A program made the translations under genes and the position numbers. From NCBI GenBank assembly GCA_947457395.1, contig CANGVA010000015.1, positions 1 to 54,093 of the forward strand: DNA of 54,093 nucleotides, in the 5' to 3' direction. The notes beneath the pieces were generated by a model. That model worked only from the letters and a program-made list of their open reading frames with translations. It did no database searches and was not told the origin of the DNA. The stretch comes from Bacteroidota bacterium. Lineage in GTDB: Bacteria; Bacteroidota; Bacteroidia; UKL13-3. Below, piece after piece: positions 46,151-53,026 of the stretch. The number at the start of each line of letters is the position of its first letter. The first letter of the stretch is position 1.

Positions 46151-46226
46151 TGGGTTTGAGGTTCGAAGTTCGATGTTCGAAGTTTGGAGTTCGAAGTTCG
46201 AAGTTCGAGGTTTGAAGTTTCTTTAA
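46151..46226. repeat. GTTCGAA-type short tandem repeat
   Basis: A tandem array of 7- to 8-base units of the form GTTCGAA/GTTTGAA (about nine copies), followed by AAGTTTCTTTAACTTAACA. A shorter version with the same flank occurs at 47946-47986, downstream of sucC. Confidence 0.75.
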
Positions 46227-46260
46227 CTTAACATTTAACATTCAAGATTCAGCTGTTTGC

Positions 46261-47889: not shown

Positions 47890-48002
47890 TTGGTGGGGAT
47901 TGGGCGTTGGGTGTTGGCTTTTAGCTTTTAGCTGTTGGTGCTTCGTAGTTCGAAGTTCGATGTTTGAAGTTTCTTTATCTTAACACATAGCATTTATTTT
48001 TT
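47890..48002. repeat. repeat-rich gap after sucC
   Basis: GGTGTTGGCTTTTAGC units (47897-47940) are followed by TTCGAAGTTCGATGTTTGAAG and a TTTCTTTATCTTAACA flank (47946-47986). Both types copy the elements upstream of sucC. No gene is seen. Confidence 0.65.
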
Positions 48003-48132
48003 AGCTGCGGGCCTTTCCCTGCTTTATATACACGTGCATGGGCCAACGCAAGTAAGCGCAGGGCCGGGCTGTTTGCTGCAAGTCCTCGCCTGCGGCTGTG
48101 GGCTTTCCGCGTCCATCCCTAAGGCGGGGGGT
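48003..48132. repeat. GC-rich non-coding element before the helicase pair
   Basis: A block of about 130 bases, far richer in G+C than its surroundings, with partly self-complementary pieces (CCCTGC 48017-48022 with GCAGGG 48058-48063; CACGTG; GCCTGCGGC). It has no open frame. It resembles the palindromic, REP-like non-coding elements that I recall from Bacteroidota genomes, but copy number cannot be seen here. The rest of the gap up to 48282 holds nothing clear. Confidence 0.5.
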
Positions 48133-48282: not shown

Positions 48283-50952
48283 ATGCTTTTGATATATATA
48301 TCTTTTGTATTCGTTTTCTTATTAATTCTAATTGTATACAAGATAAAATTAGAGAAGAATAAATATCTAAATCCAGATTACATAAATAATTTAAAGTTGG
48401 TTTATGATTTTATTGACACAATTGAAAAGCATGATGATTATATTACTTGGGTAGAGCGTGACCGCATTAAATATTCATATAAAGATGTTTGGGATTTCTT
48501 CAAAAACAAGTCAAGATACTACAGGCGCGAACCATCTGTAAAGAGATTCAATGAGATTTATAAAGATTTTAATACATATATATCCAATTACAATAAAAGT
48601 TATGTATTGGCCCGAAAAAATGAGTTAGAGAATTATTTTGATAATGTTGAGGGTAAAAGATTAGATGATCAGCAAAGAACGGCAGTAATAACTGATGAAT
48701 ATTCAAACCTAATTATTGCAGGTGCAGGTTCAGGAAAGACTTTGACAATTCTTGGGAAAGTCAAGTATCTCATTGAGCAGAAAGATATAAAACCTGAGAA
48801 TATTTTACTCTTATCATTTACAAATAAGACAGTTGAGGATTTGAATGAACGTTTAATGAAAATAGGACTTGGAGCTCGTGCAACAACTTTCCATAAACTT
48901 GGCTACGATATAATAAAAAGACACTCTAGGACTATTCCTACATTAACAAATGAGAATACTTTAAGCAATGTTGTTAAGGAGTATTTGGAAAATGAAATCT
49001 TCAACAACTCTGATGCATTAGAAGCTTATATAGTATACGTTGCTTGTTATATGAACATTCCAGAAGAACATGAAAGTTATAATTCGCTTGGTGAAAAATT
49101 AGATACTGAAAAGGGAGTCGATTTTCAAACTTTAAAATCTAAATGCCAACCGGAATTAAACATAATTGCTAAAGCAACTCTAGATACTATTCAAGGCGAA
49201 AAAGTAAAAAGTGTTGAGGAACTTACTATTGCAAACTTTCTGTATCTTAATGGTATTGATTACGAATACGAAAAAGCATATCCTCACGGTAGTATTCTGT
49301 ACCGACCAGATTTTTATCTTAAAGATTACGACATTTATCTTGAGCATTTTGGAGTTGATGAATACAACAGAGCCAAATGGCTGACACCATTCAATGAGCG
49401 AAAATATGTAGAGGAAATGGAGTTGAAAAGAAACACACATAAAACATATAAAACTAAACTCTTAGAAACTTATTCCTATTACAATAGAGACAATGTATTG
49501 CTAGATAAACTGAAAGAAATGCTTAAAAATGAAAATGTGATCTTTAAGCCAAGAGATACTAAAAGTATCTTCACAAAAGTTATGGATAAAGACAAAAGTT
49601 TCGGAAAAGAAATTACAAATCTTATCATAACATTCATAAATCTTACTAAATCAAGACAACTTAGATATCATGATATCACTAACCTATTTTCAGATAGAAG
49701 CAAAACTGGAAATGAGTATATGATTGAACGGCAAGAAATCTTCTTAAAGTTTACACTGCCAATTTTAATGAAGTATGACAATTTACTTAAAGAAAAAAAT
49801 GAAATTGATTTTAATGATATGATAAATCAGGCAACTCAAATTGTAAGGGAGTATAAACCTGAATGCACTTATCAGTATATAATCATAGATGAATATCAAG
49901 ATATTTCATATTCACGTTTTAACGTAATTAAGCAAATTCGTGATTTATCTGCGGCAAGACTAATCTGTGTTGGCGATGATTGGCAATCAATTTATCGGTT
50001 TGCAGGTAGCGATATTTCTTTGTTCAGCAATTTTGAGAAATATGTTGGTAAACACGAACAGTTATTTATAGAACAAACCTATCGAAATTCGCAATCACTC
50101 ATTGATATAACTTCAAAATATATACAAAAGAATACCAAACAAATATCCAAACAGCCTAAGTCTAAAAAAGGGCCTTTGAACAACCCGATGAAGTTTGTCT
50201 GTTATTCACAAGACAATGCAGAAGATGTTTTTATCAATGAAATCCAAAGACTTGTTGACCAATATGGCAGAAAGCCTATTTTGGTTTTAGGTCGTCATAG
50301 TTTTGACATAAATGAATTTATTAAGCTCAAACCAAATAGCCAAATTAAGTATTATGAACGTAGTGATAAATTAGAAGTTAAGGGTTTTGAAGATATCGAT
50401 ATTAAATATATTACGGTTCATAAATCGAAAGGTTTAGAAGCGGAAAACGTTATAGTGCTCAATCTGAAAAATCATTTGCTTGGTTTCCCCAATAAAATGA
50501 CTGACGACCCGATGTTATCATTATTATTAAGTGATGATGAAGAATTTCGTTTTGCAGAAGAGCGAAGACTATTTTACGTAGCACTAACAAGAACGCAGAA
50601 TGAAGTTGTGTTGCTTATTCCAACTGAAGTTTCTCTCTTTGCAGAAGAATTGGCGGCAGACAATAATTTTCTGCTTTCTATAAACAACGAACAAGTTAAT
50701 AGAACAAATTGTCCGTATTGTCAAACAGGGCAACTTGTTATTCGACAGAATGTAGTAAAACAGAATCACTTTTTAGGTTGTTCACATTTCCCGGCTTGTA
50801 ATCAAACATTTAACAATATTGAGATACTAGAAAATAGCTTACTCTGCCCAAGATGTAAAAGTGGTTTCATGGTAAAAAGATCAGGGCAGTATGGCAATTT
50901 CCTGGGTTGTACTAATTATCCTAAATGTAATGAGTCAATAGACTTAAAGTAA
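48283..50952 (+). CDS. membrane-anchored UvrD/HelD-like helicase with internal nuclease-like segment and zinc fingers
   Basis: An 889-residue SF1 helicase. Residues 1-20 are a hydrophobic anchor (MLLIYISFVFVFLLILIVYK). The Q motif LDDQQRTAV (128-135), Walker A AGAGSGKT (146-153), DEYQD (536-540), QSIYRFAGSD and the late VHKSKGLEAENV (712-723) plus LFYVALTRTQ (763-772) are classical. Between helicase halves, about 305-400, lies SVEELTIANFLYLNGIDYEYE...YRPDFYLKDYDIYLEHFG, a PD-(D/E)XK-like insertion of the type found in HelD relatives. Two C4 topoisomerase-type zinc fingers end the protein (CPYC...CSHFPAC, 810-839; CPRC...CTNYPKC, 855-882). DNA is unwound 3'-5' by relatives. Third codon positions are markedly A/T. 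A DUF2075 nuclease-helicase gene follows after 100 bases. Confidence 0.87.
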   Translation: MLLIYISFVFVFLLILIVYKIKLEKNKYLNPDYINNLKLVYDFIDTIEKHDDYITWVERDRIKYSYKDVWDFFKNKSRYYRREPSVKRFNEIYKDFNTYISNYNKSYVLARKNELENYFDNVEGKRLDDQQRTAVITDEYSNLIIAGAGSGKTLTILGKVKYLIEQKDIKPENILLLSFTNKTVEDLNERLMKIGLGARATTFHKLGYDIIKRHSRTIPTLTNENTLSNVVKEYLENEIFNNSDALEAYIVYVACYMNIPEEHESYNSLGEKLDTEKGVDFQTLKSKCQPELNIIAKATLDTIQGEKVKSVEELTIANFLYLNGIDYEYEKAYPHGSILYRPDFYLKDYDIYLEHFGVDEYNRAKWLTPFNERKYVEEMELKRNTHKTYKTKLLETYSYYNRDNVLLDKLKEMLKNENVIFKPRDTKSIFTKVMDKDKSFGKEITNLIITFINLTKSRQLRYHDITNLFSDRSKTGNEYMIERQEIFLKFTLPILMKYDNLLKEKNEIDFNDMINQATQIVREYKPECTYQYIIIDEYQDISYSRFNVIKQIRDLSAARLICVGDDWQSIYRFAGSDISLFSNFEKYVGKHEQLFIEQTYRNSQSLIDITSKYIQKNTKQISKQPKSKKGPLNNPMKFVCYSQDNAEDVFINEIQRLVDQYGRKPILVLGRHSFDINEFIKLKPNSQIKYYERSDKLEVKGFEDIDIKYITVHKSKGLEAENVIVLNLKNHLLGFPNKMTDDPMLSLLLSDDEEFRFAEERRLFYVALTRTQNEVVLLIPTEVSLFAEELAADNNFLLSINNEQVNRTNCPYCQTGQLVIRQNVVKQNHFLGCSHFPACNQTFNNIEILENSLLCPRCKSGFMVKRSGQYGNFLGCTNYPKCNESIDLK

Positions 50953-51052
50953 TATAGACGGGCTTTTTTCTTCATCCGAGAAATAACTACTTATTTAGTC
51001 CTGTTTCTCTTTAATTTGTAATGAAAACTATTATTGAACGCAGATTTAACCA

Positions 51053-53026
51053 ATGCTAAACTTTTATTATTCTGATTCAATCTCATCTTTCTTAAAAAAG
51101 TTGCCTGAGACTATTATAGGTGAAATGGCGATTAATAGTCGCTTGGGCCATATAACTACTGAATTGTATGCCTGGGAATATCAAATCAGTGTTCTAAAGG
51201 AAGTTTTAACAAAGCATGACGGACATCTATTTTTCGAATTCTCCATTCCTCGAATGGGCAAAAGGATAGATTGTTTATTGCTCATAGAGAATATTGTTTT
51301 TATTCTTGAGTTTAAAGTTGGCGAGAAAGAATTTCATCGGCATAATATTGAGCAAGTTTGGGATTATGCTTTAGATTTAAAAAATTTCCATAAACCAAGT
51401 CATAATTTATTACTTGTTCCAATACTTATTGCTACACATGCTAGAGCATCTTCTTTTCAGATAATAACTACAAATCATAATGACAACCTAATCAATCCCA
51501 TACATACAAATGCGCAAGATCTAGCTAATGCTATAAATAGTATACTAGATTATTTTGATTGCGGAGAGGACATTAGTGCTACTGATTATGTCAATGGTAG
51601 TTATTCTCCTACACCAACAATCATTGAAGCCGCAATTAGTTTGTATAATAATCATAACGTTGCTGATATTACTCGAAATGATGCTGATGCTACTAACCTA
51701 AATCATACCACGGATTACATTTCAAAGACAATAGAACTAGCTAAGAAGGAAGGGAAGAAAATCATCTGTTTTGTTACTGGTGTTCCTGGTGCAGGCAAAA
51801 CCTTAGTTGGTCTTAAAGTAGCTACTGATCATCTAGACAAGCAAAAAGGTAATACGAGTGTTTTCTTATCAGGCAATAAGCCTCTAGTTGATATTCTACA
51901 AGAGGCTCTAACACGAGATCGGATTATACAAGAGAAGTTAAAGGGCAATAAATTAACCAAAAAGCAAGCAAGAGAAAGTGTAAAAGCTTTTATACAAATA
52001 ATTCATCATTATCGCGATGAATATTTGAGAGATCCCAAAGCTCCTTATGATCATGTGGCCATCTTTGATGAAGCACAAAGGGCCTGGACTAAAGCACAGA
52101 CAGTTAAATTTATGCAACAAAAGAAAGGCGTTTCAGGCTTTCTGTTCTCTGAGCCTGAATTTTTAATTTCTTGCTTAAATAGACATCCTGATTGGGCAGT
52201 AGTTGTCTGTTTAGTAGGTGGGGGACAGGAAATTAATACAGGTGAAGCAGGAATTTCTGAATGGCTTGCTGCCGTTAAAAATCAATTCCCACATTGGGAA
52301 ACACATATATCACCAAACTTATTCGATTCTGAATATTCAGCACATACCGCAATTAAAGAGCTACAAGAATCCAGTAAAGTTGTTTACAATGATAATTTAC
52401 ATTTATCAGTTTCAATGCGCTCATTTAGAGCGGAACACCTTTCTAAACTTGTTAAACAAATTTTGGATATTGATGAATCCGCTAGGTCTACTCTAGCACA
52501 ATTGCAAGATAAGTACCCAATAGTGTTGACGAGAAGTGTTGAACGTGCAAAGGAATGGTTAAAATCCAAAGCCAGAGGTAGTGAAAGGTACGGTATTGTT
52601 GTTTCATCGCAGGCGTATCGCTTAAAACCGTTAGCCATAGACGTGAAAACTCCTATCAATCATGTGAATTGGTTCTTGGATGGTAAGGATGACATTCGTT
52701 CATCTTATTTTTTAGAAGATGTTGCTACAGAATTTCAGGTACAAGGTTTAGAGTTAGATTGGGCTTGTGTAACTTGGGATGGAGACTTGAGATTCTCTGA
52801 TGATGGATGGAAAACATTTTCATTTGTAGGAAATGAATGGCAAAAAATACATAAGTTAGAGAGACAAAAGTACCTAATCAATGCATATCGTGTTCTCCTA
52901 ACTCGTGCGCGTCAAGGTATGATAATTGTTGTTCCAGAAGGTAAAGTAGATGATCATACAAGACAGCCTGATTTTTATAATCCTACATTTAACTACTTAA
53001 AGAGCTTAGGCTTTAAAGTTGTTTAA
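51053..53026 (+). CDS. PD-(D/E)XK nuclease fused to DUF2075 (Schlafen-type) helicase
   Basis: A 657-residue protein. The first about 170 residues form a PD-(D/E)XK-like nuclease: helix with TTELYAWEYQISVLKEVL (Glu37), then RIDCLLLIENIVFILEFKVG, where D73 and E86-x-K88 take the metal and catalytic places. The rest is a DUF2075 SF1-type helicase with Walker A GVPGAGKT (243-250), Walker B VAIFDEAQRAW (335-345), SVSMRSFRAEHLSKLV (about 444-459), EFQVQGLELDWACVTW (about 562) and YRVLLTRARQGMIIVV (about 618-633). Such nuclease-helicase fusions occur in DNA repair and phage-defence settings. The ATG at 51053 follows a 100-base gap after the helicase gene. The 3' end is 29 bases from the convergent heptosyltransferase. 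Confidence 0.85.
   Translation: MLNFYYSDSISSFLKKLPETIIGEMAINSRLGHITTELYAWEYQISVLKEVLTKHDGHLFFEFSIPRMGKRIDCLLLIENIVFILEFKVGEKEFHRHNIEQVWDYALDLKNFHKPSHNLLLVPILIATHARASSFQIITTNHNDNLINPIHTNAQDLANAINSILDYFDCGEDISATDYVNGSYSPTPTIIEAAISLYNNHNVADITRNDADATNLNHTTDYISKTIELAKKEGKKIICFVTGVPGAGKTLVGLKVATDHLDKQKGNTSVFLSGNKPLVDILQEALTRDRIIQEKLKGNKLTKKQARESVKAFIQIIHHYRDEYLRDPKAPYDHVAIFDEAQRAWTKAQTVKFMQQKKGVSGFLFSEPEFLISCLNRHPDWAVVVCLVGGGQEINTGEAGISEWLAAVKNQFPHWETHISPNLFDSEYSAHTAIKELQESSKVVYNDNLHLSVSMRSFRAEHLSKLVKQILDIDESARSTLAQLQDKYPIVLTRSVERAKEWLKSKARGSERYGIVVSSQAYRLKPLAIDVKTPINHVNWFLDGKDDIRSSYFLEDVATEFQVQGLELDWACVTWDGDLRFSDDGWKTFSFVGNEWQKIHKLERQKYLINAYRVLLTRARQGMIIVVPEGKVDDHTRQPDFYNPTFNYLKSLGFKVV

Follow-up and report, generated by a model that had tools for sequence, protein, structure and literature searches.

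Helicase-nucleases are frequent in bacterial immunity, and the means by which they avoid the host chromosome are often obscure. In the case of SNIPE, a membrane-bound anti-phage nuclease of the GIY-YIG type that cuts phage DNA during injection, anchoring prevents self-damage (PMC13190303). Other known proteins resemble single parts of the locus described here, such as E. coli DNA helicase IV (HelD) or the UvrD-type helicase GajB of the Gabija system. Nhi joins a nuclease and a helicase in a single protein (PMC12904381), while the PDC families of PADLOC-DB v2, PDC-S41 among them, are defence candidates that come from a guilt-by-embedding search (PMC10855318, PMC12988326).

We analysed a stretch of Bacteroidota DNA of 54,093 nucleotides (the window), in which two genes, P1 and P2, are flanked by sucC and a glycosyltransferase 9 (GT9) gene. 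As originally predicted, both lie on the plus strand with 100 bases between them, and both reading frames are open and intact. We believe, with some confidence, that they are probably two separate, horizontally acquired genes for defence against phages or other foreign DNA, adjacent by chance, each of them a self-contained nuclease-helicase. Their features are as follows.

48283..50952, plus strand: P1, 889 aa, a helicase IV-like SF1 helicase with a predicted PD-(D/E)XK insert, a transmembrane (TM)-like N-terminus and two zinc ribbons
48286..48345, plus strand: N-terminal hydrophobic segment of P1, LLIYISFVFVFLLILIVYKI (hydropathy, charge bias, modelled helix)
48721..48741, plus strand: Walker A motif of P1, GAGSGKT (alignment; most residues invariant in 36 homologues)
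49195..49557, plus strand: predicted nuclease insert of P1, aa 305-425, with a T7 endonuclease I-like PD-(D/E)XK fold (conservation, model, profile match)
50707..50937, plus strand: two Top1-type C4 zinc ribbons at the P1 C-terminus (Pfam Zn_ribbon_Top1)
51053..53026, plus strand: P2, 657 aa, a predicted PD-(D/E)XK nuclease fused to a Schlafen-group-3 (DUF2075) SF1 helicase
51155..51433, plus strand: predicted nuclease core of P2, aa 35-127 (invariant residues, predicted core)
51764..52936, plus strand: SLFN-g3/DUF2075 helicase domain of P2, aa 238-628 (Pfam PF09848, E=2e-79)

The Pfam matches of P1 are UvrD-helicase, UvrD_C and Zn_ribbon_Top1, the last over two stretches (E=1.8e-17). Among curated families it comes closest to DNA helicase IV (NCBIfam NF008276), with a score of 312.6 bits, under the cut-off of 543 bits; by sequence, P1 is a relative of this helicase and no equivalog. 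In an alignment of P1, E. coli HelD and nine relatives from plasmids or chromosomes, HelD and P1 were seen to have a common helicase core, including the motifs GDDWQ-IYRF-G and EERRL-YVALTR, whereas HelD has neither the nuclease insert nor the zinc ribbons nor the membrane segment of P1. The predicted structure of P1 has a mean pLDDT of 82.3, and the whole model matches UvrD, PcrA and Rep. In PADLOC, Pfam and NCBIfam we found no model spanning either the nuclease insert or the full architecture of P1, and our literature search returned no paper on this architecture.

The best PADLOC matches of P1 are to GajB and cover the helicase core only. In contrast to GajB, P1 carries its own nuclease, zinc ribbons and a membrane segment, and there is no gajA-like reading frame near it within the window. 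We have therefore rejected P1 as a Gabija component, since GajA is absent. We also rejected a small RNA inside P1. Positions 50527-50628 of the window match Rfam n00280, a Clostridioides difficile sRNA sited within a helicase gene, with 44.4 bits (gathering score 65.2); this match overlaps helicase motif VI of P1, and thus coding homology is its likely cause.

The insert in P1 shows the marks of a nuclease. Residues E313, D343, E354, K382 and H386 are invariant in 36 homologues, and in the model the region from residue 311 to 416 runs through a helix, three strands, a helix and a strand, which is the alpha-beta-beta-beta-alpha-beta order of the PD-(D/E)XK core. Moreover, when a profile built from 32 P1-type inserts was compared with the PDB, the four best matches were all T7 endonuclease I (best E=0.00039). 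E313, D343 and E354 of P1 align with E20, D55 and E65 of that enzyme, which together with K67 we take to be its catalytic residues. The lysine expected two residues past the second acidic residue is absent from the P1 insert, where F356 stands in place of K67; the nuclease activity of P1 would therefore depend on K382, an invariant lysine downstream that, from the alignment, may act as a substitute. Unlike T7 endonuclease I, the domain in P1 is embedded in a helicase. Searches of the isolated nuclease regions of P1 and P2 against Pfam gave nothing significant, and no nuclease domain was recovered from the full proteins either. The prediction of a P1 nuclease is thus supported by the invariant residues, the modelled fold and the T7 endonuclease I profile match. 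Indeed, the original prediction had described the first gene as a UvrD/HelD-type helicase with a PD-(D/E)XK-like segment and two zinc fingers; Pfam agrees as to the helicase and the zinc fingers, and the invariant residues and modelled fold as to the nuclease.

What that prediction had overlooked is the TM-like segment of P1. The N-terminus reads MLLIYISFVFVFLLILIVYKIKLEKNK, and hydropathy averaged over 19 residues peaks there at 2.97, with values of at most 1.23 elsewhere in the protein; residues 2-29 are modelled as a single helix. In 49 of the 52 homologues with this segment that we examined there is more positive charge after than before it, which fits a cytoplasmic body for P1. From sequence and model, the segment is probably a signal anchor with its C-terminal side in the cytoplasm. 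On the P1 tree the trait is strongly clustered, with 7 changes compared with 21 in shuffles; it is seen in Bacteroidota, Chlorobiota, Spirochaetota, Actinomycetota, Bacillota, Saccharimonadota and Bathyarchaeota, while the proteobacterial relatives, and about one third of all P1 homologues in the tree, are without it.

The second gene had been read as a PD-(D/E)XK nuclease fused to a DUF2075 helicase, and this stands: besides the PF09848 match, E62, D73, E86-x-K88 and Q101 do not vary among seven homologues, and residues 35-127 are modelled as an alpha-beta-beta-beta-alpha-beta PD-(D/E)XK core. The predicted nuclease of P2 is supported by these catalytic residues together with the modelled core. 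The helicase part has fold matches to UPF1 and to the helicases of human SLFN11 and SLFN14. P2 as a whole is matched by PADLOC PDC-S41 (PDLC05014) at E=6e-282, residues 1-656 covering positions 1-652 of the 657 in the model, and over this full-length match we see no difference between the two. A literature search for PDC-S41 found no paper that names it. P2 also resembles Nhi in outline, but it has no Nhi match in PADLOC.

The two genes differ in composition from their surroundings. P1 has a GC content of 0.310 and a third-position GC (GC3) of 0.260, and P2 of 0.355 and 0.251, respectively, against 0.403 +/- 0.034 and 0.357 +/- 0.051 in the 36 other reading frames of the window. The A+T-rich third positions noted before are thus borne out, with both genes deviating by about 2 standard deviations. 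The repeats and the GC-rich element noted at the left border are likewise real. The intergenic repeat at 47942-48007 has a second copy at 46190-46255 (83%), and the GC-rich element at 48059-48129 has copies at G000:C2:204138 and C22:1440 (about 75%). They match scattered intergenic sites of the genome, so they mark no insertion, and we rejected them as ends of a mobile element. Elsewhere in the window, the first 1 kb has a GC content of 0.50, which may reflect a piece of an rRNA operon at this end of the contig, and an A+T-rich reading frame (GC 0.30) with a hydrophobic N-terminus lies at 1243-2490.

The distribution of both genes is patchy. Among 97 relatives, a true P1 homologue is found in one (61% identity) and P2 in six, all of them different genomes from the P1 carrier. 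Neither was found in the single genome of the same genus (G001), whose assembly is incomplete at the locus: it has no detectable sucC, and the contig with the GT9 gene is cut off at codon 25 of that gene. Genomes of other genera do not have sucC next to the GT9 gene. Across the phylum, 14 of 394 further genomes have P1 and 22 have P2. P1 shares 80% identity with a copy from Chitinophagaceae and 77% with one from Flavobacterium, but only 61% with the copy of its own family, and on the tree it is nested among copies from several families. P1 is thus closer to copies from other families than to that of its own, which argues for its horizontal movement. These comparisons clearly indicate that P1 and P2 are accessory genes, and that P1 at least has moved horizontally.

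We then consider the company that the homologues keep. Two reading frames on each side of each homologue were compared with PADLOC (E<=1e-15), with random reading frames taken elsewhere in the same genomes as a control. The neighbours of P2 matched 84 PADLOC families and those of P1 matched 234, compared with 3 in the controls, and a second P1 sample of named genomes gave 202, with Mokosh and restriction enzymes of types I and IV among them; these family counts exceed gene counts because related models match the same protein, and the contrast with the control is still large. Homologues of P1 are found among BrxL, PglZ and PglX, adjoining GajA-GajB, near a type I methyltransferase and near a C5-methyltransferase. 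The closest homologue of P2 (79%) sits between MzaCDE and a C5-methyltransferase, and others adjoin DarG/PDC-S68, a C3a193-like helicase, an HNH nuclease or McrC. That homologues of both genes lie beside known defence genes, one of the checks proposed at the outset, is therefore what we find. Against the reading as defence genes, the window shows neither another defence gene nor an integrase close to P1 and P2 themselves; the contig ends at 54093. A defence-type role for P1 and P2 is strongly supported by these sequence comparisons because of the patchy distribution, the transfer shown for P1 and the defence-rich neighbourhoods; for P2, the conserved catalytic residues and these neighbourhoods back an already catalogued candidate, PDC-S41.

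Some single loci deserve mention. At L133:2300-18800, a P1-like gene lies on the opposite strand between the BREX genes PglZ and PglX. In a genome of the same family (L037:6079-14711), P1 comes after an HNH-nuclease gene and a gene for a 1605-aa protein, which matches DpdF-like and UvrD-like helicase models; together they probably form a three-gene defence cluster. At L111:8006-10977, a P2 homologue begins a few bases before the end of an overlapping HNH-nuclease gene, which suggests that P2 has occasional partners.

The original prediction had left a core repair role equally open. P1 and P2 would in that case be host genes for DNA repair or recombination, with helicase IV-like and RecB-like processing and no part in defence, as could be expected from the homology of P1 to E. 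coli helicase IV across the helicase core and from a T7 endonuclease I-like nuclease, which suggests action on branched DNA. We disfavour this role, since both genes lack conservation within the family. Their atypical composition, their defence-rich neighbourhoods and the presence of homologues on many plasmids (for P1) and in viral contigs also speak against it, and we consider it quite unlikely. Plasmids and viruses bring up a further alternative, namely that P1, P2 or both serve the maintenance of a mobile element, through plasmid or prophage replication or by keeping competitors out, and have been left stranded here as cargo. Relatives of P1 covering at least 80% of the query are encoded in 72 plasmid records, and 24 viral contigs carry P1-like and 11 carry P2-like genes. 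However, no integrase, relaxase or phage gene adjoins P1-P2, and the neighbours elsewhere are typical defence cargo and do not belong to one type of element. We hold this alternative to be very unlikely.

The original prediction had also joined the two genes in one defence module. The defence part of that claim is upheld by the patchy distribution, the transfer of P1 and the neighbourhoods; the two-gene part is not supported by co-occurrence, and neither is the idea that the products act together, since the homologues are usually apart. None of the 394 other genomes of the phylum carries both genes, where 0.78 would be expected by chance (the probability of finding none is 0.44). Among P1-bearing genomes, 3 of 49 also have P2, which equals the background rate (Fisher p=0.75), and in no case are the two adjacent. 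At the examined P2 loci no P1 neighbour was found; 26 homologue loci show varied neighbours and no constant partner, which fits a single-gene PDC-S41 system. A fixed third gene beside P2 homologues was not found either, a downstream protein of 190 or 195 aa occurring in two loci only. A conserved two-gene module is thus not supported by these genome comparisons.

Could the pair still cooperate as one two-component system that processes the same foreign DNA? The shared strand, the 100-base spacing and the similar A+T-rich third positions are in line with this, and a second, independent tandem exists: in an Erysipelotrichaceae contig (L236:3-5225), a gene for a serine recombinase precedes a P2-like gene (46%), then, after a gap of 15 bases, a P1-like gene that is without the membrane segment, and a helix-turn-helix gene, the whole being a candidate for a small mobile defence unit. 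P1 and P2 may thus cooperate on occasion. However, the order of the genes is reversed there with respect to our locus. With this reversal, the co-occurrence counts and the P2 loci lacking P1 taken together, we judge a cooperating system to be unlikely. Such linkage is what one would expect of independent defence-island cargo that meets at times.

We therefore return to P1 and P2 as separate defence genes. The antiviral activity, membrane localisation, substrate and cutting step that we infer for them could be arranged as follows. Most likely, the N-terminal helix would fix P1 to the inner membrane, with the rest of the protein facing the cytoplasm. Foreign DNA, either on its way into the cell or branched, would there be engaged by the helicase IV-like motor; the zinc ribbons may help to grip single strands, while cutting would fall to the T7 endonuclease I-like insert. 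Tethering would keep the nuclease off the chromosome, for which SNIPE is a precedent (PMC13190303). P2, in turn, would most likely be a soluble effector, its PD-(D/E)XK nuclease being driven or gated by the Schlafen-type SF1 helicase.

It is possible, and we put this forward only tentatively, that P1 represents an undescribed defence family, present in at least six bacterial phyla and in Bathyarchaeota, of membrane-tethered helicase-nucleases that cut entering DNA and spare the chromosome by their tethering. If true, the chromosome would be protected by position instead of by sequence or modification. Members of the family are widespread and have defence genes as neighbours, and nowhere in the libraries and papers that we searched does a membrane anchor occur together with a helicase IV-type motor and a T7 endonuclease I-like cutter. 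SNIPE and P1 both combine a single N-terminal membrane segment, predicted in the case of P1, with a cytoplasmic nuclease body; in contrast to SNIPE, P1 has another nuclease fold and a helicase, and has no DUF4041 or GIY-YIG match in Pfam. We do not claim common descent from this likeness. Yet if P1 defends at the membrane, SNIPE would no longer be the sole solution of its kind.
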